The translations under genes and the position numbers were made by a program. From NCBI RefSeq assembly GCF_023150235.1, contig NZ_JAKLLH010000008.1, forward strand, positions 56,210-120,209: 64,000 bases of DNA, given 5' to 3'. This document shows, in pieces, positions 4,414-57,503 of this stretch. The DNA is from Azonexus sp. (GTDB lineage Bacteria > Pseudomonadota > Gammaproteobacteria > Burkholderiales > Rhodocyclaceae). The notes below the pieces were generated by a model. The model was not told the origin of the DNA. It saw only the letters and a list, made by a program, of their open reading frames with translations, and did not search any database. Numbering within the stretch: the first letter of the stretch is position 1; every line of letters starts with the position of its first letter.

Positions 4414-6300
4414 ATGTGCGGGATCGGCGGTTTTTTCGGACAGGACCCCGGCGCAGCCGGCGGGATCGCCGCCGCGATGCTGGCGGCGCTGGCTGCGCGC
4501 GGCCCGGATGCGCGGCATGCGCGCTTTTTCACGGTCAACGGCAAAAATAGCGAAAATTCCGGCGCCCACGCGCTGCTGCACGCCCGGCTGTCGATCATCG
4601 ACCCGCGCCCGCTGGCTGATCAGCCGATGGCCAGCAGCGATGGCCGCTACTGGCTGTGCTACAACGGCGAGGTCTATGGCTGGGAAGGCGGGGCCGCCGC
4701 ATTGGCGCGCGCCGAACCCTTCCGCAGCCGTTCCGACAGCGAATACCTGCTGCGCGGCGTCGCCGCCTGGGGCGTCGAGGCCTTGTTGCCGAAGCTGACC
4801 GGGATGTTCGCCTTTGCCTTCGTCGATTGGCAGCGGCGCGAACTGGTGCTGGCGCGCGACCGCTACGGCAAGAAGCCGCTGCTGTGGTGGTGCGACGGCC
4901 GTTCCTTTGCCTTCTCGTCGCTGTTGCGCGGCTTGTTGCCGGCGCTGCCGGCGGCGGCCCGGCGCTTGTCGGCGGCCGGGCTCGACGCTTACCTGGCGCA
5001 CCGCTACATCCCGGCACCGCTGAGCTGCGTTGAAGGCGTGCACCGCCTGCCCGCCGGGCATCTGCTGCGCTGGCCGCTGGACGGCGGCGAGCCCCGTGTC
5101 GAGCGCTGGTATCGCCCGGAGGCTGCCGGCGAGTCAGCGCCCGGCGACTGGAAGGCGGCACTCGATCAAGCCATCGAGCGGCGCTGCGTCGCCGACCGGC
5201 CGGTCGGCCTGTTTCTCTCCGGCGGCATCGATTCGAGCGTGATCGCGACCCGGCTGGCGGCCCTCGGCCATCGCTTTGCCGCCTTCACCGCCGCTTTTCC
5301 GGAAACTCCGTTCGACGAGACCGCGCAGGCCGCCAGCCTGTGCCGGCGGCTCGGCCTGCAGCATCACGTGGTGCCGGTGCCGAGCAGCATTCGCGACGAC
5401 TTTCCGGCAATTGTCGCGGCCCTCGACGATCCCTTTGCCGACCCCTCGGCGATCCCGCTGTGGTATCTGGCGCAGGCGACCAGCCGCGAGGTCAAGGTGG
5501 TGCTCGGTGGTGACGGCGGCGACGAACTGCTGGCCGGCTACAAGCGTTACCGCAAGCATCTGCGCAACGCCTGGCGCGGCCGCCTGCACTGGCCCGGGCA
5601 GCCGGCGGCAACGCCGCAGCAGGGCAAGGCCCAGCGCTGGCGCGAGGAACTCGCCAGCCCCTGGGCCGATGCCTATCAACTGCGTTTTTCCGGAATGTCG
5701 CGCGGGCAGCGGCGCTTCCTGCAGCCGGGGCCGGACCTGCCGGCGCACTACTGGGCGCCGCCGCCGGTCTGGCCGACCGATCCGCTGCAGCAGCTGCTGG
5801 CCATCGACCGCGCCAACTACCTGCCCGAATACATCCTGCGCAAGGGCGACCTGACGACCATGGGTCATGGTCTGGAACTGCGTGCGCCGCTGCTCGACCA
5901 TCACTTCGTGCAGGCGGTCGAGGCGCTGGCGCCGGCGCAGCGTTTCACCCGGCCGCCCAAGCTGCTGCTCGCCGAGGTGCTGCCGCCGGACCTGGCGCAG
6001 ACCCTGTTTCACGGCAAGAAGCGCGGCTTCAACCCGCCGCTGCGCCACTGGCTGCAGCACGACCTGGCCGAGCGCTACCCCGGTCTGGGCGAGCGGCTGG
6101 CCGGGCTGAGCGACGGCCGTCTCGACCCGATGGCGGTGACGCGGATGCTCGAACTGTATCGCGGCGGGGCCGAGGATCTGGCCGAAAACGTGCTGCAGCT
6201 GCTGATCCTCGACGAGTCCTTGCAACAATTGCAGGCCGGCGGTTTGCGATGTTTCAATCGACACCCGGAGCCGGGTGAAACAGGCGGAGTATCTCCCTGA
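4414..6300 (+). CDS. asnB: Asparagine synthase-type glutamine amidotransferase in LPS cluster
   Basis: The 628-residue product starts MCGIGGFF, giving Cys2 as the N-terminal nucleophile of a class II glutamine amidotransferase. The N-terminal domain hydrolyses glutamine; the C-terminal synthetase domain has the PP-loop LFLSGGIDSSVIATRLAAL and GGDGGDELLAGYKRY. Longer frames upstream are ignored because processing exposes Cys2. The family makes asparagine or, in surface-polysaccharide loci, amidates sugar acids. Its position between glycosyltransferases favours the second role, by inference. Residues about 38-50 (FFTVNGKNSENSG) look like an extra segment before the conserved RLSIID strand and coincide with a copy of the dispersed CGGTCGACCG-type repeat. 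The C-terminal 30 residues are not obviously conserved. Confidence 0.9.
   Translation: MCGIGGFFGQDPGAAGGIAAAMLAALAARGPDARHARFFTVNGKNSENSGAHALLHARLSIIDPRPLADQPMASSDGRYWLCYNGEVYGWEGGAAALARAEPFRSRSDSEYLLRGVAAWGVEALLPKLTGMFAFAFVDWQRRELVLARDRYGKKPLLWWCDGRSFAFSSLLRGLLPALPAAARRLSAAGLDAYLAHRYIPAPLSCVEGVHRLPAGHLLRWPLDGGEPRVERWYRPEAAGESAPGDWKAALDQAIERRCVADRPVGLFLSGGIDSSVIATRLAALGHRFAAFTAAFPETPFDETAQAASLCRRLGLQHHVVPVPSSIRDDFPAIVAALDDPFADPSAIPLWYLAQATSREVKVVLGGDGGDELLAGYKRYRKHLRNAWRGRLHWPGQPAATPQQGKAQRWREELASPWADAYQLRFSGMSRGQRRFLQPGPDLPAHYWAPPPVWPTDPLQQLLAIDRANYLPEYILRKGDLTTMGHGLELRAPLLDHHFVQAVEALAPAQRFTRPPKLLLAEVLPPDLAQTLFHGKKRGFNPPLRHWLQHDLAERYPGLGERLAGLSDGRLDPMAVTRMLELYRGGAEDLAENVLQLLILDESLQQLQAGGLRCFNRHPEPGETGGVSP
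4525..4560 (+). repeat. Dispersed palindromic element, in-frame copy inside asnB
   Basis: The stretch TTTTTCACGGTCAACGGC followed by an A-rich tail with a GCG step (to 4560) matches the intergenic copies of this family at 36013 and 57464. It is read in frame as FTVNGKNSENS. The near-core CGGTCAACGG lies at 4532-4541. Confidence 0.7.
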
Positions 6301-6334
6301 AGCCAGGGGGTTTCCAGACGGGAACGGATTTCTG

Positions 6335-7453
6335 ATGAAAATTGCCCTTTTCGATGTGACCGTGACGGTCAGTTTCGGCGGCATCCAGACGGCGGTCTGG
6401 GAACTGGCGCGGGCGCTGCACGATGCCGGCCACCAGGTCAGCGTTTTTGGCGGCGACGGCAAGATCCGGCCCGACCTCGGCGGCCGCGAGATCGCGGTGC
6501 ATACCTTCGGCTTTACCCCGCGCGACCAGGTGCTCGACCTCGGTTCGCGTTTCCGCCGCATCTGGGAGCGCTGGAGTTTCGCCAGCCAGGCCTTGCCGAC
6601 GCTGGTTGCCGGCGATTTCGACTGGGTCATCCTGACCAAGCCTTTCGACTTTTTCCTGCCCTGGCGGCTGCCGGCCGGCAGCCGGACCCGCTTCTGCTTC
6701 ATGAGCGGCGGCACCGATTTCTTCCGTGGTGACCGCCGCCTCGGCCGCAAGGTCGACGCCTGGGTCGCCTGCAGTCATTTCAACGCCTGGCAGATTGCCC
6801 ACCATTACAAGCGCTTTCCGCAGGTGATGTTCAACGGCGTCGATGTCGCGGCCTTCTCGCCGGCGGCGCGCGCGCCCGACCTGCGCCAGCAGTTGGGCTT
6901 TGCCGCCGACGACGTGGTCTTCGCCTTCGCCGGCCGGCTGGTTGGCTGGAAAGGTCTGGCGGTCGCGATCAAGGCGCTGGCCGAGCCGGCGCTTGCGGGC
7001 TTGCCGGTCAAGCTGCTGCTGATCGGCGACGGCGATGCCCGCGCCGGGCTGGGCGAGCTGGCCGCCCGCCTCGGGGTCGCCGACCGGGTGGTCTTCCAGG
7101 CACCGGTGCCGCATCGCGAATTGCCGAAATACTACGCCGCCGCCGATGGCGGGGTCTTCCCCAGCATCGGCGACGAGGCTTTCGGGATCACCATCGCCGA
7201 GGCGATGGCCTGCGGCTTGCCGGTGGTCGCCAGCCACATCGGCGGGATTCCCGAAGTCGTTGGCAACGAAGGCGCCTGCGGCTTGTTGGCGCCGGCCGGA
7301 GATCCGGCGGGTTTTGCGGCGGCGATGGCCGGCCTGGCTGCCGAGACCAGCTACCGGCAGCGCCTCGGCGCCGCTGCTGCCGCACGCATCCGTGAACAAT
7401 TCACCTGGACGCTGGCGGCGCAGCGTTTGCTGCGCGCGCTGGCGAGCGCCTGA
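6335..7453 (+). CDS. Glycosyltransferase family 4
   Basis: The product has 372 residues, beginning MKIALFDVTVTVSFGGIQTA with the GT4 glycine loop. The donor domain starts near DDVVFAFAGRLVGWKGL and holds LLIGDGDARAGLGELAARLG and the catalytic-region segment DEAFGITIAEAMACGLPVVA. The frame is open 20 codons further up, but that would overlap the asnB end and is unlike the family N-terminus, so ATG 6335 is used; the gap to asnB is then 34 bp. It probably adds a hexose or similar residue during LPS core or O-antigen assembly in the cytoplasm. The specific donor is unknown. Confidence 0.9.
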   Translation: MKIALFDVTVTVSFGGIQTAVWELARALHDAGHQVSVFGGDGKIRPDLGGREIAVHTFGFTPRDQVLDLGSRFRRIWERWSFASQALPTLVAGDFDWVILTKPFDFFLPWRLPAGSRTRFCFMSGGTDFFRGDRRLGRKVDAWVACSHFNAWQIAHHYKRFPQVMFNGVDVAAFSPAARAPDLRQQLGFAADDVVFAFAGRLVGWKGLAVAIKALAEPALAGLPVKLLLIGDGDARAGLGELAARLGVADRVVFQAPVPHRELPKYYAAADGGVFPSIGDEAFGITIAEAMACGLPVVASHIGGIPEVVGNEGACGLLAPAGDPAGFAAAMAGLAAETSYRQRLGAAAAARIREQFTWTLAAQRLLRALASA

Positions 7454-9856: not shown

Positions 9857-10860
9857 ACGCGGTCGGTGCGATAGGCAGCCGCCGTGCGGCGCAGGCCTTC
9901 GTCGACCCCAACCGGCGGCGTCCAGCCGAGTAGTTCTCGGTTTTTCCCGATGTCGACGGCGAGCGAGCCGAGCAGGCGATCTGTCATCCCCGAGCGTCCG
10001 AGCAGTCTTGCCGCAAAGCTGAGCCACGCCGGCGGGCAGGGCAGCAGGCGAGCCGGGCGGCCGAGCCCGGCGGCGAGCCCGCGCAGGAGTTGCGGCGTAC
10101 TCAGGTCGGCGCCGTCGCTGACCAGGAAAGTCTGGTTCGCGGCGGCTGGATGACGGCAGCAGAGGGCGATGAAATCGACCAGGTTGTCGATGAAAACCAG
10201 GCTGCGGCGGTTGTCGACCGTGGCTAAAGGCAAGGGTAGCCCGTGCTCCAGCGCGCGCAGCAGGGCGCGGAAGTTGGCCTTGACGCCGGGGCCGTAGACC
10301 AGCGGCGGGCGCACGATCACCACTTCCAGCCCGGTTGCCGCCGCCAGTTCGCGCAAACCCTGTTCGGCTTCGTGCTTGGAGATCCCGTAAGGGTCGAGTG
10401 CTTGCGCCGGGTCGTCGGCGCGGAAGCGCTGTTCGCCACGGGTGGCTTCGCCATTGACCTTGAGCGTGCTGACGAAGACGAAGCGGCGGACGCCGGCGGC
10501 CACCGCCTGTTGCGCCAGGCGCAGGGTCGCATCGCGGTTGGCGGCACGGAACGCCTGCTGCGGGTCGGCGGCGGTCTCCTGCATCACATGCACCCGCGCC
10601 GCGCAGTGGATGACGCAAGCGACGCCGTCCAGGGCCGCCGCCCAGCCGGCCTCGTGCTGCAGGTCGAGGCCGCTGCAGATGGCTCCCGGCAGGCTTGCCG
10701 GGGCGTGGGTCCGAACGGCACAGCGCAGTTGCCAGTGCGGGTCGGCCGCCAGATGTCGGGCCAGGGCCTGGCCGACGAAGCCGGTGGCGCCGGTGAGCAG
10801 CACGGTGGTAGGTGCGGCAGTGGCAGGGGAAAGAGGTGGGGCGGATGAGGGCGCGGGCAT
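9847..10860 (-). CDS. NAD-dependent nucleotide-sugar epimerase/dehydratase (WbpV/GalE-like)
   Basis: This 337-residue extended short-chain dehydrogenase begins with a proline-rich leader, then the NAD-binding loop TVLLTGATGFVGQALARHL. The catalytic pair is YGISK, preceded by FVFVSTLKVNGEATRGEQRF; a VNGE segment after the serine/threonine strand recalls WbpV-type UDP-sugar epimerases. It probably supplies an epimerised UDP-sugar to the neighbouring transferases. ATG 10860 is chosen; an in-frame ATG at 10890 would add ten residues. It is convergent with the O-antigen ligase (10-bp overlap) and divergent from the heptosyltransferase at 10951, leaving 90 bp for both promoters. Substrate specificity is inferred only. 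Confidence 0.85.
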   Translation of the reverse strand: MPAPSSAPPLSPATAAPTTVLLTGATGFVGQALARHLAADPHWQLRCAVRTHAPASLPGAICSGLDLQHEAGWAAALDGVACVIHCAARVHVMQETAADPQQAFRAANRDATLRLAQQAVAAGVRRFVFVSTLKVNGEATRGEQRFRADDPAQALDPYGISKHEAEQGLRELAAATGLEVVIVRPPLVYGPGVKANFRALLRALEHGLPLPLATVDNRRSLVFIDNLVDFIALCCRHPAAANQTFLVSDGADLSTPQLLRGLAAGLGRPARLLPCPPAWLSFAARLLGRSGMTDRLLGSLAVDIGKNRELLGWTPPVGVDEGLRRTAAAYRTDRVQD

Positions 10861-11949: not shown

Positions 11950-12086
11950 GCCCGCGCCCGGCGCAGTCGGCACGGCCGGTCGAGAAGGTTGCGGGTGTTC
12001 CCGGTACTGCGGCAAAAGACAGGCAGGTAGCCCAAAACCTGCGCCACGCGGCGTCATCGGCGCCCGAGATCGGGGCTGCGGGATGA

Positions 12087-12128
12087 AAAAAGGCGATTTT
12101 CACGGTCGACCGTGAAAATCGCCTTTTT
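12087..12128. terminator. 42-bp perfect palindrome acting as bidirectional terminator (repeat family member)
   Basis: The two 21-base arms are exactly complementary, with no loop: five A, GGCGATTTT, CACGGTC, then the mirror image ending in five T. It sits between the convergent genes ending at 11949 and 12141. On either strand the transcript would form a long stem followed by U, so it can serve as an intrinsic terminator both ways. The centre is the CGGTCGACCG core (12103-12112) shared with copies elsewhere. Confidence 0.85.
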
Positions 12129-12140
12129 ACCTTGGCCGCT

Positions 12141-13739: not shown

Positions 13740-13768
13740 TCTCGGTCGGCGCCAGGTCAAAATGCCAA

Positions 13769-13795
13769 TTTGGCGCGGTTGACCGTGAATAGGTG
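13769..13795 (-). repeat. Dispersed palindromic element, polA/ArnT-like gap
   Basis: Read on the minus strand, TATTCACGGTCAACCGCGCC is followed by AAATTGG. This is a variant copy with near-core CGGTTGACCG at 13776-13785 (plus strand). It occupies the short gap between two minus-strand genes. Confidence 0.65.
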
Positions 13796-13815: not shown

Positions 13816-16572
13816 TCAATGCGCCGCCTCCCAGTTCGGGCCGACGCCGATGTCGGCGACCAGCGGCACCCGCAGGGTCGCCACCCGGCTCATCAGCTGC
13901 GGAATCCGGTGGCGCACCGCCTGCAGCTCGCTGTCCGGCACTTCCAGCACCAGTTCGTCGTGCACCTGCAGGATCAGCCGGGTCTGCAACTGTTCGCGCT
14001 GCAGCCAGTCCTGGACCGCGACCATCGCCAGCTTGATCAGGTCGGCGGCGGTGCCCTGCATCGGCGCGTTGATCGCGGCACGCTCGGCGCCCTGGCGGCG
14101 CATCGCCTGGCTGGACTTGATCTCGGGAAAGTGCAGGCGGCGACCGAAGACGGTCTCGACATAGCCCTGTTCGCGCGCCATCTGCCGCGCTTCTTCCATG
14201 TAGCGGGCGACGCCGGGGTAGCGGGCGAAATAGCGGTCGATGTAGGTCTGCGCCGCGCTGCGTTCGAGTCCGAGCTGGCGGGCCAGACCGAAGGCGCTCA
14301 TGCCGTAGATCAGGCCGAAGTTGATGCTCTTGGCGACGCGGCGCTGGTCCGGGCCGACTTCGAGCGGGGTGACGCCGAAAATCTCGGCGGCGGTGGCGCG
14401 GTGCACGTCCTCGCCGTGGGCGAAGGCCTCGCACAGACGCGGGTCGCCGGAGAGATGGGCCATGATCCGCAGCTCGATCTGCGAATAGTCGGCGGAAACG
14501 ATGCTGCTGCCGGCCGGGGCGACGAAGGCGGTGCGGATGCGGCGGCCTTCCTCGGTACGCACCGGGATGTTCTGCAGGTTGGGTTCGCTCGACGACAGGC
14601 GGCCGGTGACCACCGAGGCCTGCGCGTAGTGGGTATGCACCCGCCCGGTCCGCGGGTTGATCATCTTCGGCAGCTTGTCGGTGTAGGTGCCCTTGAGCTT
14701 GGCCAGGCTGCGCTGTTCGAGCAGCAGCTTGGGCAGCGGGTAGTCGAGCGCAAGCTCGGAGAGCACCTCCTCGTCGGTCGAGGGCGCGCCCGAAGCGGTC
14801 TTTTTCTTGACCGGCAGGCCGAGCTTGGTAAACAGGATTTCGCCCAATTGCTTGGGTGAGGCCAGGTTGAACGGCTGGCCGGCGAGTTCGTAGGCCTGGG
14901 TTTCCAGCGCCAGCAGCTTCTGGCCGATTTCGTGGCTCTGGCGGGCGAGCAGTTCGCCGTCGACCAGCACCCCGGTGCGTTCCATCTGCCAGATCACCTG
15001 GCGTGCCGGCAACTCGATCTCGCGGTAGATGCGTTCCAGTCCTGCCGCCTCGGCGATCACCGGCCGCAGCCGCTGGTGGATGCGCAGGGTCATGTCGGCG
15101 TCTTCGGCGGCGTAGGTCGCGGCGCGTTCGAGTTCGACCTGGTCGAAACTGATCTGCTTGGCGCCCTTGCCGCACAGGTCCTCGAAGGCGATGGTGTCGA
15201 GCCCGAGGTGGCGCTTGCACAGCTGGCCGAGGTCGTGGCCGCCGCCGGGCCATTTGCCGGAGTCGAGGACGTAGCTTTGCAGCAGCGTGTCGTCGGCGAT
15301 CCCGGCCAGCGCGATGCCGTGATTGGCGAAGACATGTTGGTCGAACTTGGCGTTCTGCAGCAGCTTTTTACGGTCGACCGCCTCCAGCCACGGTTTCAGC
15401 CGTGCCAGCACCGCCTCGCGCGGCAGTTGCTCGGGGGTGCCGGGGGCGCTGTGGGCGAGTGGGATGTAGCAGGCATGACCGGGCTCGACCGCGAGCGAGA
15501 GGCCGACGATGCGGGCGGCAAAGGGGTCGAGGCCGTCGGTCTCGCTGTCGAGCGCGGTCAGCTCGGCGGCTGCAATGCGTGCCAGCCAGGCGTCGAAGGC
15601 CGGCCAGTCGAGCACGGTTTCGTAATTGACCGGCGGTGCGGCGACAGCTGGCGCAGCCTCGTCGTCCGCCAGCGCGGCCTCGCCGCTTGCGTTCGCGACC
15701 GGCAGGTTGCCATCGCCATCTTCGAGCGCGGTGCTGACTTCGCGCAGCCAGGTGCGGAAGTTGTAGCGGCTGTACAGCTCGCGCAGCGTCGGCAGGTCCG
15801 GCTCGCTCACGGTCAACGCGGTGGGGGCCGGCAAATCCGGCAGGTCGCAGACGACGGTGACCAGCTTCTTGCCGAGCGGCAGGAAGTCGAGATGGTCGCG
15901 CAGGTTCTGGCCGACGACGCCGGTGATTTTCTCGGCATTGGCGACGATGCCGTCGAGCGAGCCGTACTGGGCCAGCCACTTGAGCGCGGTCTTCGGGCCG
16001 CACTTGCTGACGCCGGGAACGCCGTCGACGGTGTCGCCGACCAGCGCCAGGTAATCGACGATCATTGAAGGCGGGACGCCGAACTTGGCTTCGACGCCGG
16101 CGGCGTCGAGCACTTCGTCGGTCATGGTATTGACCCAGCGGACGTGCGGCCCGACCAGCTGGGTCAGGTCCTTGTCGCCGGTCGAGATCACGCTGTCGAT
16201 ACCGGCGGCGGCGGCTTGCGTCGCCAGGGTGCCGATCACGTCGTCGGCCTCGACCCCGTCAACATTGAGCAGCGGCCAGCCGCAGGCGCGAATCGCGGCG
16301 TGGATCGGCTCGATCTGGGCGCGCAGCTCATCCGGCATCGGTGGCCGGTGCGCCTTGTATTGCGGGTACCAGTCGTCGCGGAAAGTCTTGCCCTTGGCGT
16401 CGAAGACCACGGCTTTGTAGTCCGCCTTGTAGTCCCCATCCAGCCGGCGTAGCATGCTCAGCACGCCATACAAGGCCCCGGTGGGCTCCCCGGCAGGGTT
16501 GCGCAGGTCGGGCATGCCGTGGAAGGCCCGATAGAGATAGGACGAACCGTCCACCAACAACAAAAGAGGCAT
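13816..16572 (-). CDS. polA: DNA polymerase I
   Basis: The product has 918 residues, the normal full length. An N-terminal 5' nuclease domain (about 1-290; LLLVDGSSYLYRAFHG, ADDVIGTLA) is followed by a 3'-5' exonuclease domain with LDSETDGLDPF (about 320-500). The family A polymerase domain carries SADYSQIELRIMAHLSGD and the C-terminal VHDELVLEVPD. It fills gaps after primer removal and during repair. A copy of the dispersed palindrome (core at 15371-15380) lies inside the exonuclease domain and is read as EAVDRKKL with no evident change of length. ATG 16572 lies 5 bp from the start codon of the divergent LOG gene. I see no Shine-Dalgarno for polA itself. Confidence 0.97.
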   Translation of the reverse strand: MPLLLLVDGSSYLYRAFHGMPDLRNPAGEPTGALYGVLSMLRRLDGDYKADYKAVVFDAKGKTFRDDWYPQYKAHRPPMPDELRAQIEPIHAAIRACGWPLLNVDGVEADDVIGTLATQAAAAGIDSVISTGDKDLTQLVGPHVRWVNTMTDEVLDAAGVEAKFGVPPSMIVDYLALVGDTVDGVPGVSKCGPKTALKWLAQYGSLDGIVANAEKITGVVGQNLRDHLDFLPLGKKLVTVVCDLPDLPAPTALTVSEPDLPTLRELYSRYNFRTWLREVSTALEDGDGNLPVANASGEAALADDEAAPAVAAPPVNYETVLDWPAFDAWLARIAAAELTALDSETDGLDPFAARIVGLSLAVEPGHACYIPLAHSAPGTPEQLPREAVLARLKPWLEAVDRKKLLQNAKFDQHVFANHGIALAGIADDTLLQSYVLDSGKWPGGGHDLGQLCKRHLGLDTIAFEDLCGKGAKQISFDQVELERAATYAAEDADMTLRIHQRLRPVIAEAAGLERIYREIELPARQVIWQMERTGVLVDGELLARQSHEIGQKLLALETQAYELAGQPFNLASPKQLGEILFTKLGLPVKKKTASGAPSTDEEVLSELALDYPLPKLLLEQRSLAKLKGTYTDKLPKMINPRTGRVHTHYAQASVVTGRLSSSEPNLQNIPVRTEEGRRIRTAFVAPAGSSIVSADYSQIELRIMAHLSGDPRLCEAFAHGEDVHRATAAEIFGVTPLEVGPDQRRVAKSINFGLIYGMSAFGLARQLGLERSAAQTYIDRYFARYPGVARYMEEARQMAREQGYVETVFGRRLHFPEIKSSQAMRRQGAERAAINAPMQGTAADLIKLAMVAVQDWLQREQLQTRLILQVHDELVLEVPDSELQAVRHRIPQLMSRVATLRVPLVADIGVGPNWEAAH
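15365..15382 (-). repeat. Dispersed palindrome core inside polA
   Basis: TTTTTACGGTCGACCGCC on the plus strand contains an exact CGGTCGACCG (15371-15380). On the coding strand it reads GTC GAC CGT AAA AAG, giving V-D-R-K-K. Confidence 0.6.
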
Positions 16573-18718: not shown

Positions 18719-19464
18719 ACGAACCCCAATCCTTTCCCCTGGTCCCGGCACCTTTCTCCGGCCATTCGCGCGAGGTCGAGGCCGGCGCCTGTTTCGACTG
18801 GTTGCGCCAGGGCTGGATGCTGTTTCTCGGCAATCCCGGCGTCTGGATCGGTAGCACGGTCCTGCTGCTGGTGATGCTGATGGCGATATCCATCGTCCCG
18901 CTCTTCGGCCAGGTCGCGGCCCACCTGCTGGCGCCGCTGTTCAGCGTCGGCATGCTGAAGCTGGCCAAGTGCCTGGCCGAAGGTGAAGAACCGCATGTCT
19001 CCGATCTTTTTGCCGGCTTCCGCAGCCAGCGCAGCGGCCCCCTGGTCATGGTCGGCGTCCTCTTCGCCGCGGCCAGCTTCGGCATTGCCTTTATCGCCTT
19101 CCTGCTCGTCAGCGGTGGGGTCATCGGCGGCGTGGTGACCGGCAAGGTGGGCGGCATCGGTGTCGCGCTCGGCGGGGCGATGCTCGCCGGCCTGCTGGTG
19201 ATGGTCTTGTCGGTTCCGGTGATCATGGCCACCTGGTTCGCACCGGCGCTGGTCTTCTTTCACGGCATGACGCCGGTCGAGGCAATGAAGGCGAGTTTCG
19301 CCGCCGGCGCCAGGAACTGGCTGGCGATGTGCGTCTTCGCCACCTTCCTCGTCATCGCGCTTTTCTTCGCCATGCTGCCGATGCTGCTCGGCTTGCTGCT
19401 TTTCCTGCCGGTCTTCTCCGGTGCGGTCTACGCGTCCTATCGCGACATTTTTGCCGGAGCCTGA
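18715..19464 (+). CDS. BPSS1780-family membrane protein (first of tandem pair)
   Basis: The product has 249 residues with about five to six membrane segments. A cytoplasmic lead-in (FDWLRQGWMLFLGNPGVW) precedes the first segment, and the protein ends FSGAVYASYRDIFAG. Family members have no established function that I know. The start overlaps the thrB stop by 4 bp. The gene 3 bp downstream is a paralogue with the same architecture and C-terminal end (YASYRDIF here, YACYRDIF there). Residues about 110-160 are very rich in glycine and valine. Membrane location is clear; the role is unknown. Confidence 0.8.
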   Translation: MNEPQSFPLVPAPFSGHSREVEAGACFDWLRQGWMLFLGNPGVWIGSTVLLLVMLMAISIVPLFGQVAAHLLAPLFSVGMLKLAKCLAEGEEPHVSDLFAGFRSQRSGPLVMVGVLFAAASFGIAFIAFLLVSGGVIGGVVTGKVGGIGVALGGAMLAGLLVMVLSVPVIMATWFAPALVFFHGMTPVEAMKASFAAGARNWLAMCVFATFLVIALFFAMLPMLLGLLLFLPVFSGAVYASYRDIFAGA

Positions 19465-39366: not shown

Positions 39367-39374
39367 AAAATGCG

Positions 39375-39400: not shown

Positions 39401-39555
39401 ACGAAAAAGCCTCCGGGCGCGAGGAAGGCAGCTGCCCCGCGCTTGCCGCTGTATTTTTTCTTCCCCGCCGTCGTTCGGATGACGCTACAATCCGCGTTCG
39501 TCATTGGAATAACGTGGATGAATAAACCGGCCGGAGCCGTGGCCGCTAGCTGCCG

Positions 39556-45236: not shown

Positions 45237-45280
45237 TCACGGTCGACGGCAAAAAACAGCGAATTTGCCGGTCGACCGTA
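45237..45280. repeat. Paired dispersed palindromic elements behind enoyl-CoA hydratase
   Basis: TCACGGTCGACGGC, an A-rich spacer with CAGCGAATTTG, then CCGGTCGACCGTA. Near-core CGGTCGACGG is at 45240-45249 and an exact core at 45269-45278. Two cores 29 bp apart can pair (GGTCGACGGCAAA with TTTGCCGGTCGACC) to form a stem around an ACAGCGAA-type loop. A rho-independent T run is absent. Confidence 0.6.
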
Positions 45281-48643: not shown

Positions 48644-49729
48644 GTGGGTTTCGATATCTCCTCGCTGTTGAATCCCAAGGCCCGTTCCCTGTTCGGGCTG
48701 GATATCAGCTCGTCTGCCGTCAAGGTGCTCGAATTGAGTGCCGCTGGCAAGGGTGGGTATCGCGTCGAGCGCTACGCCACGGAAATCCTGCCCAAGGATG
48801 CGGTTCTTGACGGCAATATCGTCAATTTTGATGCGGTCGTCGACACTGTTCGTCGTGTTTGCAAGCGTTTTGGCGCCTCAACGCAGAATGTGGCCATGGC
48901 CCTGCCAGCTTCGGCGGTAATCACCAAGAAAATCCTGGTGCCCGCGGGCTTGCGCGAAGAGGAACTGGAGGCGCAGGTCGAGGCCGAGGCCAACCAGTAC
49001 ATTCCTTTCTCAATCGAAGAAGTGAATCTCGATTATCACGTCATTGGGCCATCGGCCAGTGCGCCGGAGGAACTGGAGGTATTGATTGCGGCTTCCAAGA
49101 AGGAGCGAGTCGAGGACAGGGTGGCAGTGGCCGACGCTTCAGGTCTGAAGGCCGTGGTCGTAGACGTGGATTCGCTGGCTTCTCTCGCTGCTCTCGAATT
49201 GATCGAGAAGCAGTTGCCTCAAGCCGGGCGCGATCAGGTGCTGGCGCTGGTCGATGTCGGCGCGCATTCGACCAATCTCACCGTCTTGCGCAACGGGCAG
49301 CAGGTCTACGCACGCGAACAGGCTTTTGGCGGCGTGCAGCTGACCCAGGATGTCGCTCGCCAATACGGGATGAGTTTCGAGGAGGCCGAGGCTGCCAAGC
49401 GCGGTGGCACCCTCCCCGATAGTTATCGCGACGAACTGCTCTTGCCGTTCATGGAAAGTCTGGCGCTGGAGGTTTCCCGTGCCTTGCAGTTCTTTTTTAC
49501 TTCGACGCAATTCAACCAGGTCGACCATCTGGTCCTGGCTGGGGGCTGTGCCGTCATTCCCGGGCTCGATGAAATCGTTGCCACGCGTACCCAGGTCAAT
49601 ACCCTGATTGCCAATCCCTTTGCCGGCATGGCCGTTTCCGACAAGGTTCGTGCCAAGAGCCTGCTGGCCGATGCTTCCTCGCTGATGGTGGTCTGCGGCC
49701 TGGCCCTGCGGAGGTTTGACCCGATATGA
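48644..49729 (+). CDS. pilM: Type IV pilus assembly ATPase-like protein PilM
   Basis: The product has 361 residues with an actin-like (FtsA/MreB) fold on the cytoplasmic side, which binds the N-terminus of PilN and organises the pilus alignment complex. FGLDISSSAVKVLELSAAGK, VAMALPASAVITKKILVPAG and VLALVDVGAHSTNLTVLRNG are the nucleotide-site strands. DHLVLAGGCAVIPGLDEIV lies near the end. GTG 48644 is chosen because GGGAGGT lies just upstream. The stop overlaps pilN by 4 bp. First gene of pilMNOPQ. Confidence 0.96.
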   Translation: MGFDISSLLNPKARSLFGLDISSSAVKVLELSAAGKGGYRVERYATEILPKDAVLDGNIVNFDAVVDTVRRVCKRFGASTQNVAMALPASAVITKKILVPAGLREEELEAQVEAEANQYIPFSIEEVNLDYHVIGPSASAPEELEVLIAASKKERVEDRVAVADASGLKAVVVDVDSLASLAALELIEKQLPQAGRDQVLALVDVGAHSTNLTVLRNGQQVYAREQAFGGVQLTQDVARQYGMSFEEAEAAKRGGTLPDSYRDELLLPFMESLALEVSRALQFFFTSTQFNQVDHLVLAGGCAVIPGLDEIVATRTQVNTLIANPFAGMAVSDKVRAKSLLADASSLMVVCGLALRRFDPI

Positions 49730-50295
49730 TCCGCATCAACCTGTTGCCGCATCGCGAGGCGGCGCGCAAGGCCAAGCGTGAGCAATTCTATCTTCAGGCC
49801 GGCCTGGTTTCCGTGCTGGGCTGTGTCGTCATTTTTGCCGGCTACACCCTGATCGGTGGCGCCGTTTCGGCTCAGGATGACGCTAATGCCTACCTCAAGA
49901 CCGAGATCGCCGTTCTCGACAAGCAGCTTGAGGAAATCAAGGGGCTCAAGGAACAGACGCGAGCCCTGCTCTCGCGCAAGCAGGTGATCGAGAACCTGCA
50001 GAAAGATCGCGGAGAAACGGTACATCTTCTCGCCGAACTGGTGCGCCAGGTACCCGAGGGGGTCTATCTGAAATCGCTGAAACAGGACGGCCTGAAGATC
50101 GATATCGCCGGCTATGCCCAATCGAATGCCCGCGTGTCAGCCCTGATGCGCAATATCGAGGCTTCGCCCTGGCTGGAGAATCCACTGCTGATCGAGGTCA
50201 AGGGGCTTACCCTGAACGGACGGCGCCTGAATGAGTTCAGCCTGAATTTCACGATTACACGTACAGAGCCGGAAGAAACGAAGGGGAAGAAGTGA
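49726..50295 (+). CDS. pilN: Type IV pilus inner-membrane protein PilN
   Basis: The product has 189 residues. The conserved cytoplasmic start MIRINLLPHREAARKAKREQ binds PilM. One membrane segment (about 22-42, VSVLGCVVIFAGYTLIG) is followed by a coiled coil and a periplasmic ferredoxin-like domain (LLAELVRQVPEGVYLKSLKQ). It pairs with PilO. The start overlaps pilM (ATGA) and the stop shares bases with pilO (TGATG). Confidence 0.95.
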   Translation: MIRINLLPHREAARKAKREQFYLQAGLVSVLGCVVIFAGYTLIGGAVSAQDDANAYLKTEIAVLDKQLEEIKGLKEQTRALLSRKQVIENLQKDRGETVHLLAELVRQVPEGVYLKSLKQDGLKIDIAGYAQSNARVSALMRNIEASPWLENPLLIEVKGLTLNGRRLNEFSLNFTITRTEPEETKGKK

Positions 50296-50978
50296 TGGCT
50301 CTCAAATTCTCCGTGCCGAAGATCGATGCGCAGGCCCTGCTCGACGAATTTCGTTACATGAACCCCAACGATCCGGGGAGTTGGCCGCTGCTGCCCCGGA
50401 TCGCGGTTCTGCTGGGATTGTTCGTGGCCCTGCTTTTTCTCGGCTGGTTGCTGGTCTGGGACGAGCAGCTGAGCACGCTGGATACGCGGCGCAATGAAGA
50501 GCAGTCGCTCAAGGAGCAGTTTCTGGAAAAAAAGCGGCAGGCGGTCAACCTTGGTTTGTACAAACAGCAACTGGCGGAAATCGACCGCTCCTTTGGGGCA
50601 TTGCTCAAGCAACTTCCCGGCAAGGCCGAGATCGAGGCCTTGTTGATCGAGGTTAATCAGGCGGGCCTGGGGCGCGGCCTGCAATTCGACTTGTTCAAGC
50701 CGGGGCAGGTGCAGGTGCGGGATTTCTATGCCGAAATGCCGATTGTGGTGCGCGTAAACGGCAGCTACCACGATCTCGGTGCCTTTGCCGCCGATATCGC
50801 CCGCCTGCCTCGTATCGTCACCCTCAACAATATTGCGATTGCTCCGCAGAAAGAGTCCTCTGGACTGGTTCTGGATGCAACGATCAAGACCTTCCGTTAT
50901 CTGGACGAGGAAGAGCTCGTCGAGCAGCGCCGCGTCGAGGCCGCGCGCAAGAAGGAAAAAGCGGGAGGCAAGAAATGA
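50295..50978 (+). CDS. pilO: Type IV pilus inner-membrane protein PilO
   Basis: The product has 227 residues. A short cytoplasmic lead, one membrane segment (about 37-56, IAVLLGLFVALLFLGWLLVW), a coiled coil (NEEQSLKEQFLEKKRQAVNL) and a periplasmic domain with VNQAGLGRGLQFDLFKPGQV and EMPIVVRVNGSYHDLGAFAA. It forms the PilN-PilO heterodimer that links PilM to PilP. ATG 50295 is used (a GTG lies directly before it). The C-terminus is lysine-rich. It overlaps pilP by 4 bp. Confidence 0.95.
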   Translation: MALKFSVPKIDAQALLDEFRYMNPNDPGSWPLLPRIAVLLGLFVALLFLGWLLVWDEQLSTLDTRRNEEQSLKEQFLEKKRQAVNLGLYKQQLAEIDRSFGALLKQLPGKAEIEALLIEVNQAGLGRGLQFDLFKPGQVQVRDFYAEMPIVVRVNGSYHDLGAFAADIARLPRIVTLNNIAIAPQKESSGLVLDATIKTFRYLDEEELVEQRRVEAARKKEKAGGKK

Positions 50979-51520
50979 GCGGGCGGGCTTCCTGGTTGTT
51001 TGCTTCCTTGCTGCTTTGCCTCCTGTCCGCCTGCGAAAGCGGCGACCATGAGGATTTGAGGCGTTGGACGCAGGAAAATGGACAGCAATTGCAGGCTAAT
51101 ATCCAGAAACTTCCCGAAATGAAGCCTTATCAGGCGGTTTCCTACGATGTCGAATCCCTGGTCGACCCGTTCCGCCCCGGGCGGATCGAGCCGGAAGGCA
51201 AGCTGCGCAATTCCGGGAAAGGGGGGCCGGATTTCGATGCTCGCGAATTGCGGAACAGCCTGCTTGAAAAATACCCGCTTGAGTCGATGAAAATGATCGG
51301 CTATTTGCATGTCGACCGTAAGCCGATGGCCGTGGTCCAGGTCGAAGACAAGGTCAAGCAGGTGCGGGTGGGGGACTACATGGGCCAGGATTTCGGTCTG
51401 GTCAAGCGGGTAACGGAGAGCGAAATCGAATTGCACGAACTGGTGCAGGACTCTACGGGTGAATGGACGGAGCGAACGAGCTTGCTCTATCTGCAGAGTA
51501 CGGATGGGGGTAAGAAATGA
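50975..51520 (+). CDS. pilP: Type IV pilus lipoprotein PilP
   Basis: The product has 181 residues. A lipoprotein signal (LFASLLLCLLSACESGDHED) has lipobox LSAC with Cys at about residue 19. The periplasmic part carries the linker SYDVESLVDPFRPGRIEPEG and a beta domain with MKMIGYLHVDRKPMAVVQVE that binds the secretin PilQ. It connects the PilNO inner-membrane complex to the outer membrane. A VDRK string here coincides with CGACCGTAA but fits the family fold, so I do not count it as a repeat. It overlaps pilQ by 4 bp. Confidence 0.94.
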   Translation: MSGRASWLFASLLLCLLSACESGDHEDLRRWTQENGQQLQANIQKLPEMKPYQAVSYDVESLVDPFRPGRIEPEGKLRNSGKGGPDFDARELRNSLLEKYPLESMKMIGYLHVDRKPMAVVQVEDKVKQVRVGDYMGQDFGLVKRVTESEIELHELVQDSTGEWTERTSLLYLQSTDGGKK

Positions 51521-53757
51521 AGTGGATCAGGATATGGGCTCTTGCGGGAGCATTGCTCGCCCCGCCTTTGCAGGCGGAGTCCCTGGCCGGGGAGAATGCG
51601 ATCGAGGCCATTCAGGCGACGCGCCAGGGTAATGAAATCATTTTCCGGGTCGACTTGCGCGAGCCTCTGGCCGAGCCGCCGGCCGGATTCGTGATTGCCA
51701 ATCCGGCCAAAATAGCCTTCGATTTCCCGTCGACCGTGAATGGCCTGGGCAAGAACGCACAAGCCATCAACGAAGGCGATTTGCGTAGCGTAAACGTGGT
51801 GCAGGCTGGTGAGCGAACCCGTCTGGTGATGAATCTGGTTCAGAAAATGAACTACAGGACCCGACTCGAGGGCCGCTCACTTTACGTCAACCTGCTGCCG
51901 ATTGCCTCGCAGATGGATTCGGTGGCCTCGCGCACTACGAAATTTGCCGAGGAGCGTCTTTTCTCGGAACGCCACGCCATACACGACATCCTCTTTCGGC
52001 GAGGGAAGGATGGCGAGGGGCGGGTCCTGATTGAGCTTAGCGATGCCGGTACCGGCATCGATATCCGGCAACAGGGGAGTACCTTGGTTGTCGATTTTTC
52101 GCGGACCCTCCTGCCGGAGCATCTTCAGCGCAAGCTGGATGTGGCCGATTTCGCCACGCCGGTCATGTCCGTTGAATCGAAAATCAATGGCGAGCATGCA
52201 CGCCTGACCATCACGCCGAAGGGTCTGTGGGAACACACTGCCTATCAGACCGACAATCAACTGGTGGTGGAAGTCAGGCGCCTGCAGGAGGACCCTAGCA
52301 AGCTGGTGCAGGGGAATACCATCGGTTACCAGGGACCGCGGGTGAGCATCAATTACCAGAATGGCGATGTGCGCGCGCTTCTGCGTCTGATGGCGGAAGA
52401 ACTGGGCCTGAACGCCGTGATCAGCGAAACGGTGACGGGAACGACAACCCTGGTGCTCAAGGATGTGCCCGCCGATCAGGTGATCGAGATCATCTTCCAG
52501 CAGAAGGGCCTCGACATGCGCAAGAAGGGCAATATCGTGATGATTGCCCCGCGTGATGAAATCGGTACCCGCGAAAAACTGGAGCTCGAGACCAAACAGC
52601 AGATCAGCGAACTGGAGGCTCCCAAGATGGAACAGTTCGTTCTCAATTACCAGAAGGCCACCGACGTGGCGCGTCTGCTGCTGGGGCTCCCGGTGGCGGC
52701 GACCACTGGTGGGGCCACGGTTGCTCCGCAGCCGGCGGCGACCGGCTCCGCTTCCGGGATGGCACAGCGGATATTGAGCAAGCGCGGGCATGCGGTGGGC
52801 GATCCCCATTCCAATCTGCTGTTTGTCAGCGATATTCCATCCAAGCTGGAGGAAATTCGTTCCTTCATCCGTGCTATCGATGTCGGTGCCCGGCAGGTCT
52901 TGATCGAGGCTCGCGTGGTCGAGGCCAACGATACCTTCAACAAGGAACTGGGGGTTCGCCTGGGTTTCCTCAATCGCCAGGCGCAGCAGATCGGTAACAG
53001 TGGTATCGGAATCGGCGGCGGCAGCTATGCACCGCCGTCGTTCTCGTCGAAGACGACGGCAATATCCTCGTCCAAGGTGGGGGATAGTTCGGTCAAGACG
53101 GAGTCCTTGTACTCGCCGGGCGACCAGGCTTCACCGACCGCGCTCGGCGTCAATTTGCCGGTCAGCAATCCAGCGGGAACCATCGCATTTTCCATTTTCA
53201 ATTCCTCGCTGACACGCATACTCAACCTCGAACTCTCGGCTCTCGAGTCCGATGGGGTGGGCAAGATCGTCTCCGCCCCGCGCGTGGTGACGGCAAACAA
53301 CGTCAAGGCCAAGATCGAAGACGGCACCGAAATTCCCTATACCGCGACGACCAGTAGCGGAGGTGCGATTACCCAGACGGTCACTTTCAAATCCGCCAAG
53401 TTGTCGCTCGAAGTGACTCCCCAGATCACCCCCGAGGGCAACGTCAGGATGGGCCTGGTAGTCAAGAAAGAAGAGCCGGACTACTCGCGCCTGATCACGA
53501 CGGTGACCGGAGATCGCTATCCCCCGATCAAGAGTTCGGTGGTGGAAACCAACGCTGTCGTGGACAACGGTGGAACAGTGGTTATCGGCGGTGTTTTCAT
53601 CACCAAGAACGAAAATGGTGTGGATAAAGTGCCGGTGCTCGGCGACGTTCCCTTCCTCGGCTGGTTGTTCAAGTCCAAGGTCGAGCGGGCCGATCGCCGG
53701 GAACTGCTGGTATTCATCACCCCGAGAATCATTTCCGATAAAGTCCGGGTCGATTGA
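51517..53757 (+). CDS. pilQ: Type IV pilus secretin PilQ
   Basis: The product has 746 residues: a signal peptide (MKWIRIWALAGALLAPPLQA), two AMIN-type domains that bind peptidoglycan (about 30-280), an STN/N0 domain (RVSINYQNGDVRALLRLMAE), N1 domains and the secretin beta-barrel, with LEARVVEAND-like strand VLIEARVVEANDTFNKELGV and VPVLGDVPFLGWLFKSKVER near the end. It forms the outer-membrane pore for the pilus. The stretch GGATVAPQPAATGSASGM is a low-complexity linker between N domains. It ends 60 bp before the repeat protein at 53818. Confidence 0.96.
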   Translation: MKWIRIWALAGALLAPPLQAESLAGENAIEAIQATRQGNEIIFRVDLREPLAEPPAGFVIANPAKIAFDFPSTVNGLGKNAQAINEGDLRSVNVVQAGERTRLVMNLVQKMNYRTRLEGRSLYVNLLPIASQMDSVASRTTKFAEERLFSERHAIHDILFRRGKDGEGRVLIELSDAGTGIDIRQQGSTLVVDFSRTLLPEHLQRKLDVADFATPVMSVESKINGEHARLTITPKGLWEHTAYQTDNQLVVEVRRLQEDPSKLVQGNTIGYQGPRVSINYQNGDVRALLRLMAEELGLNAVISETVTGTTTLVLKDVPADQVIEIIFQQKGLDMRKKGNIVMIAPRDEIGTREKLELETKQQISELEAPKMEQFVLNYQKATDVARLLLGLPVAATTGGATVAPQPAATGSASGMAQRILSKRGHAVGDPHSNLLFVSDIPSKLEEIRSFIRAIDVGARQVLIEARVVEANDTFNKELGVRLGFLNRQAQQIGNSGIGIGGGSYAPPSFSSKTTAISSSKVGDSSVKTESLYSPGDQASPTALGVNLPVSNPAGTIAFSIFNSSLTRILNLELSALESDGVGKIVSAPRVVTANNVKAKIEDGTEIPYTATTSSGGAITQTVTFKSAKLSLEVTPQITPEGNVRMGLVVKKEEPDYSRLITTVTGDRYPPIKSSVVETNAVVDNGGTVVIGGVFITKNENGVDKVPVLGDVPFLGWLFKSKVERADRRELLVFITPRIISDKVRVD

Positions 53758-53817: not shown

Positions 53818-55764
53818 ATGGCCAAAGTTGCCTATGACCCCTTCGGTTCCTATCCGACCCAACCGAGCGTGATCACGGTTGCTCCGCCCACGGTGACCCT
53901 GGCTGCGGCCAGCGACTCGGGGACCCTGGGCGACCAGGTGACGGCTTACAAGAACGTCCGCCTCGAAGTGAGCGGCCTGCGCTCGAGCAGCTTTGCCTGG
54001 TTGTCGAAAGATGGAAATTCGACACTGGATGCGGTCGATATTCCGGTGATCAATGGAGCCGTCAACGTTTCCCTGAGCGCCGGTTACAACACCTTCACCT
54101 TCTATCAGCAGGATATTCCCACCGGCCAGCTTTCGCTGCCTTCCTACTATGCAGTTTATCTCGATCCGGCTGCAGCGGCGCAACAAACCCAGGCTTTCGA
54201 GGCCAGTTTGAACAAGATGGCCCTCGCCTATCTTGGTCGGCCGCTGACAACCCAGGAGTACCAGACCTACAGCGCCATTCTGGAAGGTGGCGGCGGCGAC
54301 ACCACTACCCTGGCGACTACCTTGGCGAGTCATCCGGAGTTTTACGCGGTCTACACCGTTCCCGACCTGAAAACAGGCATCGAACGCTGTTACAGCATGC
54401 TTTTCGGCCGAACAGCCACGTCAAGCGAGGTGTCGCAATGGTCTGCCAGGATCGCCGATGGCTCGCTTTCCGTTCTCTCCCTGCCTCGAGCCATTGCGGA
54501 GTCGGCAACGGGGAGCGACACGGGGGTTCTGGCAGCCCGGGTCTTGTTCATGCAGCAGGCAAATGCCGATTTTGCCGATAATCTTGCGGCCTCGGGCGTT
54601 GCCGAGCGAACCCTGCTCGAGGTCGAGCGCACGGCCCTGCAAGGCATCGCCTCGCACGGGGATATCGCGAGTAGCTACGAGAGCATCGTAGCCAATGCGA
54701 GCAGCCTGAAAACGACCCCGGGATCCTTGCCCGCCCCCAGCGTATCGCTCGACACTGCTTCCGACGACGGTACCAAGGGCGATTCCGTCACCTCGCTGCA
54801 AACCGTGAAGATCAATGTTTCGGGTACCACTCCCGGCTCCCTGGCCTGGCTGGATAATAATTTCAACGGTCAATTCGATCCTTCGACCGATAGTCCGGTC
54901 ATCAACGGCTCGGTTTATGCCAACCTGAACTTCGGGGCGAACGCACTCAGTTTCTACCAGCAGATCAATAACGTCGTCTCGGCACCTTCCTACCTTACTG
55001 TCCGCCGGGCCGATGCCAATACGCCCATCAACCCACCGGCTGCCCCGGTTCTGGATCTGCGGACCGAGGACGACGATGGCGTCAATAACAGCGACAACGT
55101 TACGACCAAGTCGATTGTCCGGATCGACGTTTCCAACTTGGACCCGACCTCCAGTTTTGCCTGGGTCGAGAAAGATGGCAATGGCGTTTACAACTCGGGC
55201 ACGGACATCGCCCTGCAGGTCGGCGGCACCACAGCGACGGCAACCGTGCAATTGCTCGAAGCCGGCCTGGGCTCCAACATCACCGGCCTGTCGGTCCATC
55301 AAGTCAGAGCCGGGCTGGCCTCGGCAGCCGGGCATTTGAGCGTGACTTTTTTGAAGAGTGTGGATGTGGTGAAAATCACTTCCGGTTCGGGGGCGTTTGG
55401 AAATGACAGTGTAATATCGCTGCAGTTTGACCGCCCGGTGGACTGGGCCAGGTTGGATACCAATTCGGATGGCTACCTGTCACTTGGCAAACCCGGAGCT
55501 TCAGGTGTTGAACTGGGGGTAACCTTGGCGGGGAGCAAGCTGAATATCGGTATCCCGGCAGACTGGAAGATCAAGGTTCCCAGCTATTGGAGTACTTTCT
55601 TGACTCTGACCGATGTCGATATTTCTTTCCGTCAGGATCCAAATTCGACTACCGATCCGAAAAAATACTTCGATTCAGGAGATCTGCTAGTCCTGCTTAC
55701 CGGAGTTCCCGATTTGAGCGCAGGGGTCTTCTCCGATGCGTCAATCTCTCTCCCCATAAAATAA
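53818..55764 (+). CDS. Repeat protein with DUF4214-like domain, inserted between pilQ and aroK
   Basis: The product has 648 residues and is of unknown function. Three related beta-rich repeats of about 95 residues are visible (about 20-115, 305-410, 418-525). Each begins with an aspartate-rich turn (AASDSGTLGDQVTAYKNVRL, TASDDGTKGDSVTSLQTVKI, TEDDDGVNNSDNVTTKSIVR) and carries 'FAWL..DGN' or 'LAWLDNNFNG'. Between repeats 1 and 2 is a helical stretch like DUF4214 (ALAYLGRPLTTQEYQTYSAI, LFGRTATSSEVSQWSARIAD), often found in secreted or surface proteins. No signal peptide is seen, so export, if any, would be by another route. ATG 53818 has GGAG 8 bases upstream; earlier in-frame ATGs exist at 53770, 53785 and 53803. 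Not a standard member of this locus. Confidence 0.75.
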   Translation: MAKVAYDPFGSYPTQPSVITVAPPTVTLAAASDSGTLGDQVTAYKNVRLEVSGLRSSSFAWLSKDGNSTLDAVDIPVINGAVNVSLSAGYNTFTFYQQDIPTGQLSLPSYYAVYLDPAAAAQQTQAFEASLNKMALAYLGRPLTTQEYQTYSAILEGGGGDTTTLATTLASHPEFYAVYTVPDLKTGIERCYSMLFGRTATSSEVSQWSARIADGSLSVLSLPRAIAESATGSDTGVLAARVLFMQQANADFADNLAASGVAERTLLEVERTALQGIASHGDIASSYESIVANASSLKTTPGSLPAPSVSLDTASDDGTKGDSVTSLQTVKINVSGTTPGSLAWLDNNFNGQFDPSTDSPVINGSVYANLNFGANALSFYQQINNVVSAPSYLTVRRADANTPINPPAAPVLDLRTEDDDGVNNSDNVTTKSIVRIDVSNLDPTSSFAWVEKDGNGVYNSGTDIALQVGGTTATATVQLLEAGLGSNITGLSVHQVRAGLASAAGHLSVTFLKSVDVVKITSGSGAFGNDSVISLQFDRPVDWARLDTNSDGYLSLGKPGASGVELGVTLAGSKLNIGIPADWKIKVPSYWSTFLTLTDVDISFRQDPNSTTDPKKYFDSGDLLVLLTGVPDLSAGVFSDASISLPIK

Positions 55765-57443: not shown

Positions 57444-57461
57444 ATGTTGCCGGTTTTTGGC

Positions 57462-57503
57462 GATTTTCACGGTCGACCGTGAAAAAGCCGCATTTTCCCG
57501 CAT
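57462..57503 (+). repeat. Dispersed palindromic element behind aroB (possible terminator)
   Basis: A 22-bp perfect palindrome (57464-57485; arms TTTTCACGGTC and GACCGTGAAAA, core 57470-57479) is followed by AGCCGCATTTTCCCGCATTCC. The asymmetric tail resembles the tail of the asnB copy. It lies 20 bp after the aroB stop. Confidence 0.75.

Follow-up and report, generated by a model that had tools for sequence, protein, structure and literature searches.

In known competence systems based on type IV pili, the secretin PilQ serves as the DNA channel, and the receptors are ComP for the DNA uptake sequence (DUS) and, as has been proposed, PpdA/ComN for the uptake signal sequence (USS). Other abundant repeats include HIP1 of cyanobacteria, a palindromic octamer (GCGATCGC) that is very frequent in and between genes, and the repetitive extragenic palindrome (REP) and bacterial interspersed mosaic element (BIME), which are intergenic palindromes found behind genes. 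The USS of the Pasteurellaceae have a strict core with two A/T segments on its 3' side, are found both within and between genes, originate by mutation, and fall into types by subclade (PMC1626085); their extended forms are given as AAAGTGCGGTCAATTTT and AACAAGCGGTCAAATTT (PMC12616744). The DUS of the Neisseriaceae occur in several dialects (PMC3630211) and lack flanking motifs (PMC1626085). Furthermore, a 2026 survey describes uptake sequences in the terminators of Neisseriaceae and Pasteurellaceae, with no other family mentioned in the part of that paper available to us (PMC13020248). In this paper, we have analysed a 64,000-nucleotide stretch of the genome of Azonexus sp. (assembly GCF_023150235.1, contig NZ_JAKLLH010000008.1, positions 56,210 to 120,209), hereafter the window, together with further sequence from its source genome and its relatives, with respect to a dispersed element that consists of a ten-base core and an offset A/T tract. 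Judged from its sequence properties, this element is very probably a DNA uptake sequence of the USS/DUS kind, which would place such a system in a third family.

The element was first noticed, in a sequence-only reading of the window, as a ten-base palindrome, CGGTCGACCG. All eight exact copies reported by that reading are present where it placed them, whereas 100 dinucleotide shuffles lead to an expectation of 0.23 and never contained more than 2, and 22 copies are found if at most one mismatch is allowed, against 5.77 expected. In the source genome as a whole (G000; 3.42 Mb in 50 contigs) CGGTCGACCG occurs 361 times and its reversed word 42 times, i.e. the enrichment is real. Among 150 genomes of the family, three further sampled members of the genus contain 26, 160 and 385 copies, and the remaining 146 contain 0-38. 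The existence of a dispersed element is hence confirmed, and its core matches no described family within the open-access literature searched. Among the near matches, those at 13776, 35590, 36018 and 45240 indeed have one mismatch each, but the one at 4532 reads CGGTCAACGG, with two mismatches to the palindrome, and is part of a perfect asymmetric core that starts at 4530.

The palindrome is nevertheless ruled out as the unit by a ranking of k-mers against a third-order Markov expectation in a 464-kb sample of G000, i.e. the window and 20 more stretches of 20 kb. The most enriched 10-mer in this sample is CACGGTCGAC, with 126 copies against 3.2 expected (39-fold, compared with 7-fold for CGGTCGACCG), and CACGGTCAAC has 41 copies against 0.9 expected. 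The core is thus asymmetric, CACGGTCRAC, and is present in 167 copies, or 360 cores per Mb. In 152 of these copies at least four of the five bases at +24..28 from the core start are A or T, for a background of 0.075. In the profile of 166 copies (one lies too close to an end) the core occupies positions 0-9 and is followed by a weak tract at +14..18 and a strong one at +24..28, so that the tracts lie about ten or twenty bases apart; weak A/T tracts are also seen upstream of the core, at about -14..-11 and -4..-1, with starts otherwise put at about -15 and -5, and the flanks are variable outside core and tracts. The likeness beyond the core that had been reported earlier is therefore genuine, but it consists of the downstream A/T tract and T-rich/A-rich flanks, not of a single fixed 30-mer. 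According to the single-base variants, position 0 of the core is Y and position 1 is R, positions 3-6 and 9 are nearly fixed, and position 7 is free. The consensus is very strong, with 167 perfect against 171 singly mismatched copies; the corresponding ranges for 20 shuffled words are 0-8 and 7-113. When 300 10-mers were drawn as a control from 2,553 others with 15-60 copies, their median tract fraction was 0.053, and only one reached a fraction equal to that of the core, from an 18-base tandem array. An array of 24 copies of 18-base units with CAGATTCAACCC is located at L031:2171-2650 (G000 C5:62171-62650), and the word CTACCCGCTACC, found 21 times in 280 kb of the G147 stretches L222-L235, probably marks another. 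As GTCGAC is self-complementary, two opposed cores can overlap to give the palindrome first noticed; at least one core with tract is present in seven of the eight palindromes of the sequence-only reading, the exception being that at 15371.

When core and tract were searched together (CACGGTCRAC-N15-WWWW, with the reversed pattern as control), G000 was found to contain 908 sites, evenly divided between the strands (467/441, p 0.41), against none for the control, and a relative, G147, contains 872. No replication polarity is seen with respect to GC skew in 20-kb stretches of G147 (49:42) or G161 (34:28), and on these orientation counts we reject a polar signal. More generally, we regard it as extremely improbable that the element is a restriction-modification target, a Chi-like recombination site or a signal of the kind of the FtsK-orienting polar sequences (KOPS). 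GTCGAC is the SalI word, and Chi and KOPS are likewise short and frequent; however, an A/T tract at a fixed offset belongs to the site, its strands are balanced, and its core is kept between relatives (see below).

The distribution of the element is largely confined to one genus. The genus-named nearest relatives by polA (best 80 loci of 568 relatives) are Azonexus and Dechloromonas, and among 76 genomes of this genus at least 100 sites were found in 20, at least 20 in 41, fewer than ten in 29, and none in two, with 0-3 matches of the reversed control in each. One of them, G062, has 160 copies of CGGTCGACCG (control 30), yet 21 core-and-tract sites. In the other genera of the family (146 genomes) the pattern has 0-5 matches per genome; clusters of four sites (G031:C38:40227-51366) and three sites (G038:C15:6059-11518) are seen there in two genomes, the genomes otherwise having at most one, and both clusters are likely DNA acquired from Azonexus. 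Within the genus the preferred word varies. In G161, G182 and G196 the preferred word is YACGGTCAAC, behind which come CGGAAAA, a spacer resembling GGCC and A/T tracts at +24..28 and beyond; the top word is TGCGGTCAAC in G218 and TGCGGTCGAC in G155, and in G156, which has 466 core-and-tract sites, the 60 kb sampled show the GAC form, its first base being free. The word GGTCRACCGGAAA (dialect B) is present in 50-423 copies in 13 of the 76 genomes and in 0-19 copies in the other 63. On a polA tree of 50 genomes of the genus and three outgroups, built by a quick method with 18 of the 50 inner branches open and without G186, the open frame of which was wrong, the 13 genomes rich in GGTCRACCGGAAA require three label changes, whereas shuffled labels require 11.8 on average, and 11 of them fall in one clade. 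The eight genomes with the GAC form (dialect A) are scattered, requiring six changes against 7.6, with low-count genomes in between. There are hence two main dialects, which are largely clade-bound. Since G000 and G147 are the earliest branches of this tree, the ancestor of the genus probably had the motif already, with repeated decay since then. In three genomes poor in the motif, no strong word of another dialect was found (G112, 100 kb examined; G150, 120 kb; G062, 40 kb). A scan of 370 genomes of the class with RCGGTCAA gave a highest noticed ratio to the reversed word of about 2.7 (G443), and none resembled a full uptake system; in G000 itself this word gives 454/437 against 336/340 for the reversed one, and being so blunt a probe it leaves room for other systems in the class.

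With respect to genes, the limits of which in the window and the sample come from our own gene prediction, 116 of the 167 cores lie inside genes, 50 are intergenic and one is partial; as 86% of the DNA is coding, intergenic cores are over-represented. The density per 10 kb is 19.3 in convergent gaps (enrichment p 1.6e-5), 6.2 in tandem and 3.7 in divergent ones, and 2.9 in coding DNA. The earlier placement of copies was right in part. The site at 4530 does lie in the asparagine synthase gene, and copies are found as described in the genes called nadD (20436; a cytidylyltransferase-like protein), acetoacetate-CoA ligase (35588; an AMP-binding enzyme) and polA (15371; DNA polymerase I domains); the near match at 13776 lies between polA and the next gene. 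Most cores are genic. The full palindrome CACGGTCGACCGTG occurs at 19 distinct loci in the 464 kb, of which 13 are intergenic, five lie in genes and one at a gene end. The arms of some of these palindromes are long, and in G147 the palindrome at 12101 has three arm pairs changed on both sides. The palindromes are overlapping opposed cores, mostly intergenic and partly built into terminator-like hairpins. The palindromic loci, the crowding into convergent gaps and the paired arm changes could also be explained if the family as a whole were one of intrinsic terminators or hairpins, with selection for termination as the cause of its spread. We consider this very unlikely, since the majority of cores lie in genes, the core is asymmetric and has its tract at a fixed distance, and 129 of the 167 cores are outside any full palindrome (38 strand hits are within one). 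Termination looks like a secondary use of the sites.

The sites are well conserved where the comparison can be made. In aligned DNA of G000 and G147, which is 85-86% identical, 27 and 25 sites could be aligned in the two directions, and the core was identical in 21 of the 27 and 21 of the 25, against 0.268 and 0.280 of the nearby 10-mers (p 5e-8 and 9e-9, respectively). Identity amounts to 96% at core positions, 86% in the tract and 75-81% in neighbouring blocks. Four of the six and three of the four non-identical sites differ by substitution only, two and one being gapped in the core, and no block insertion was seen at any of the alignable sites. Among more distant relatives, six window sites were aligned in G156 (one the same, four substituted, one gapped), two in G150 and one in G112, the last three all substituted. 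Where alignable, the sites behave as maintained point-mutation sites rather than as inserts. The copy number and the palindromic look of the subset first noticed had suggested a REP- or HIP1-like family or a mobile miniature palindrome; given the asymmetric core, the variable flanks, the genic majority and the lack of an inserted block in alignable DNA, the element is almost certainly not a REP/BIME-like or other mobile miniature element.

Nearly all of the sequence features tested that mark the USS/DUS class are thus present in the Azonexus element. The uptake reading is preferred because abundance, strand balance, lack of polarity, placement in genes and convergent gaps, conservation and dialects all match the marks of USS and DUS. 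Of the readings offered earlier, that of a protein-binding site is the closest. The protein might also be an intracellular one that binds the element throughout the genome, with a role in segregation, in the organisation of the nucleoid, in the control of replication or in a large regulon. A bending protein, for instance, could be served by a conserved site of two parts with phased A/T tracts, and uptake and a receptor are things that we infer. We nevertheless find this alternative quite unlikely, as the copies show no polarity against GC skew and lie largely inside genes, are nearly absent from other genera, and switch dialect within the genus, and as the consensus is sharper than is usual for regulators (an argument used in PMC1626085).

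Under the preferred reading, that of an uptake sequence, a surface receptor, probably a minor type IV pilin, would bind YRCGGTCNAC (mostly CACGGTCRAC) together with the A/T tract, the latter being read one to two helical turns downstream of the core. DNA bearing the site would be pulled through PilQ to the periplasm and through ComEC into the cell, and would then recombine. Point mutations that create or improve a site might spread by biased recombination, up to about a thousand sites per genome, because tagged DNA would enter more often. Overlapping opposed cores would form palindromes, some of which may act as terminators behind genes.

The machinery that we looked at, i.e. PilMNOPQ, pilins and ComEC, is present. 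ComEC of G000 is intact, with its three domains, and 17 pilin-like N-termini were found in this genome, 15 of them above the cut-off. A minor-pilin operon encodes a pilin of the ComP_DUS family (39.8 bits, cut-off 27.3), a GspH/FimT-like pilin, a weak PilV match and PilW. In ten of the 76 genomes comEC matches in two or three pieces, which lie on one contig, in order, on one strand and 2-64 kb apart (G150, at C1:3064248-3130284 in L174 and L175, G157, G158, G182, G194, G196, G198, G202, G219 and G220). Most of the breaks fall around positions 145-166 and 590 of the profile, and genes near the ends of the G150 insert include a set like the cyclic-oligonucleotide-based antiphage signalling system (CBASS; a DncV-type nucleotidyltransferase and an E2/ThiF protein) as well as a CusS-type kinase together with a response regulator. 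The competence gene comEC seems to be a target of islands.

Several observations weigh against an uptake function. The 29 genomes with fewer than ten sites include many with an intact comEC, and a split comEC does not significantly account for low counts (p 0.074; ten split and 55 intact, relatedness ignored, 11 genomes with fragmentary, frameshifted or missing comEC being left out). The ComP_DUS-family pilin is encoded by 70 of the 76 genomes whatever their motif count, and being nearly universal in the genus it was dropped as proof of a receptor. Its predicted fold (mean predicted local distance difference test score 76.6) is like that of minor pilins generally, not of ComP in particular; the best matches in a fold search were PilV, a Shewanella type IV pilin, the PAO1 pilus and PilE, and ComP was absent among the best 50 of 185 matches. 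Co-occurrence gave no support for the FimT-like pilin as the receptor, as it does not track the motif across the genus: it is 71% identical in G147, 64-67% identical in two genomes with 2 and 6 sites, and elsewhere at most 44% identical over long matches and up to 54% over short ones. The alignable G000/G147 sites number only 27 and 25, and nine of the 19 exact cores of the window lie outside DNA alignable to G147. The tract signal is modest: A/T is retained at 91% of positions in the tract, compared with 86% over all positions and 76% in the stretch immediately downstream. In addition, apparently no competent strain is described in the available parts of the open-access papers on natural transformation that name Dechloromonas.

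Of the 19 exact cores in the window, 18 have four or five A/T bases in the tract, and 11 variant cores with tract are also present. These are listed in Table 1 together with the pilus genes of the window. Few genes were predicted between 23493 and 27965.

Table 1. Cores with A/T tracts and type IV pilus genes in the 64-kb window
Feature	Position	Strand	Context
Variant core TGCGGTCAAC + tract	1231..1259	+	inside ABC transporter gene
Core CACGGTCAAC + tract	4530..4558	+	inside asnB (4414-6300); G147 keeps core with allowed A/G change
Core CACGGTCGAC, weak tract (3/5)	10194..10222	-	inside epimerase-like gene
Core + tract, opposed half of 12101 palindrome	12086..12114	-	
Core + tract, half of palindrome CACGGTCGACCGTG	12101..12129	+	between convergent genes; terminator-like hairpin
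Core CACGGTCAAC + tract	13759..13787	-	between polA and next gene
Core CACGGTCAAC + tract	15808..15836	+	inside polA; identical in G147; substituted in G156, G150, G112
Variant core CACGGTCCAC + tract	18273..18301	-	inside phosphotransferase (APH-family fold) gene
Variant core TGCGGTCTAC + tract	19422..19450	+	inside gene 18715-19464
Variant core TACGGTCGAC + tract	20436..20464	+	inside nadD
Core CACGGTCGAC + tract	27030..27058	-	opposed variant core CGCGGTCGAC at 27045 (+)
Variant core TGCGGTCGAC + tract	28985..29013	+	opposed CGCGGTCGAC at 28989 (-); between convergent genes
Core CACGGTCAAC + tract	31667..31695	+	inside U32 peptidase gene (31302-32606), which holds four sites
Core CACGGTCGAC + tract	31691..31719	-	U32 peptidase gene; core identical in G147, G156
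Core CACGGTCGAC + tract	31961..31989	+	U32 peptidase gene; one substitution in G147
Core CACGGTCAAC + tract	32494..32522	-	U32 peptidase gene
Variant core CACGGTCCAC + tract	33597..33625	-	inside acyltransferase gene
Core CACGGTCGAC + tract	35588..35616	+	inside acetoacetate-CoA ligase-like gene (33837-35825)
Core CACGGTCAAC + tract	36016..36044	+	between divergent genes
Opposed half of 39381 palindrome	39366..39394	-	
Core + tract in palindrome CACGGTCGACCGTG	39381..39409	+	behind aminotransferase gene
Core CACGGTCGAC + tract	45238..45266	+	opposed variant TACGGTCGAC at 45271 (-); spaced inverted pair between convergent genes
pilM, pilN, pilO, pilP (type IV pilus assembly)	48644..51520	+	Pfam PF11104, PF05137, PF04350, PF04351
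Variant core TACGGTCGAC	51311	-	in pilP
pilQ, outer-membrane secretin	51568..53757	+	Pfam PF00263, AMIN PF11741
Core CACGGTCGAC + tract	51710..51738	-	inside pilQ
Variant core CGCGGTCTAC + tract	54345..54373	+	inside gene 53785-55764
Opposed half of 57468 palindrome	57453..57481	-	
Core + tract in palindrome CACGGTCGACCGTG	57468..57496	+	behind dehydroquinate synthase gene

If the uptake reading is true, this would be the first uptake-sequence system outside Neisseriaceae and Pasteurellaceae found in the open-access literature searched, and its occurrence in a third family, one of environmental bacteria, would mean that the trait is not tied to host-associated bacteria. It would also offer an independent system for the receptor problem and make a convergent versus a shared origin of DUS and USS testable. 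With its two main dialects, its named strains, and genomes that contain intermediate numbers of sites or almost none, the genus is suited to the study of how specificity arises, switches and is lost. Gene exchange is also of practical interest in wastewater systems that remove phosphorus, in which members of Dechloromonas are often abundant (PMC8630035).

Comparison with the described systems separates the Azonexus element from the first two kinds of repeat and brings it close to uptake sequences. HIP1 and the Azonexus element are both frequent in genes and gaps, but HIP1 is palindromic, whereas the Azonexus unit is asymmetric with an offset tract; unlike REP/BIME, the Azonexus sites are mostly genic and non-palindromic, and show no inserted block in alignable DNA. 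Among the open-access PMC papers listed, none has the Azonexus motif as its subject, judged by title and opening of the abstract, and no paper on uptake sequences in Rhodocyclaceae or on natural competence in Burkholderiales was found. One paper that mentions Azonexus, PMC7593972, has as its topic TfpC of Neisseria gonorrhoeae. Like the Azonexus site, the DUS is a 10-mer dispersed through genomes of a betaproteobacterial family; it has dialects and is found in terminators (terminator-like hairpins in Azonexus). A ComP_DUS-family minor pilin is encoded in G000. The DUS core GCCGTCTGAA is, however, unrelated, and is not among the top Azonexus words in the ranked lists, which included no separate count of it.

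The resemblance to the USS of the Pasteurellaceae extends to the sequence itself. The Hin-type and Apl-type USS, AAAGTGCGGTCAATTTT and AACAAGCGGTCAAATTT, have CGGTCAA in common with Azonexus CACGGTCAAC, with the tracts on the same side, and share TGCGGTCAA (Hin) or GCGGTCAA (Apl), nine or eight bases, with TGCGGTCAAC, the top word of G218. When the USS words are shuffled, 0.0016-0.0021 of trials give a 7-mer shared with TGCGGTCAAC and about 0.0002 a shared 8-mer; the overlap is suggestive only, because several dialects were compared and chosen after viewing. The cores differ, that of the USS being AAGTGCGGT or ACAAGCGGT and that of Azonexus CACGGTCRAC, and the top words of eight genomes of the genus are other words. 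A/T segments follow the core on its 3' side in both, although the Azonexus spacing (weak at +14..18, strong at +24..28) is different (PMC1626085); weak upstream tracts and a betaproteobacterial host also set the Azonexus sites apart. It is conceivable, though doubtful, that a single recognition system, or a single receptor lineage of minor pilins, reading CGGTCAA and 3' A/T tracts, gave rise both to the Azonexus sites and to the Pasteurellaceae USS; sequence-specific DNA uptake would then be older than supposed, and the genus would show dialects of this system splitting and decaying. The density of sites is similar, with 360 cores per Mb in the G000 sample and 742 copies of ACAAGCGGT in the 2.2 Mb of A. 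pleuropneumoniae (PMC1626085).

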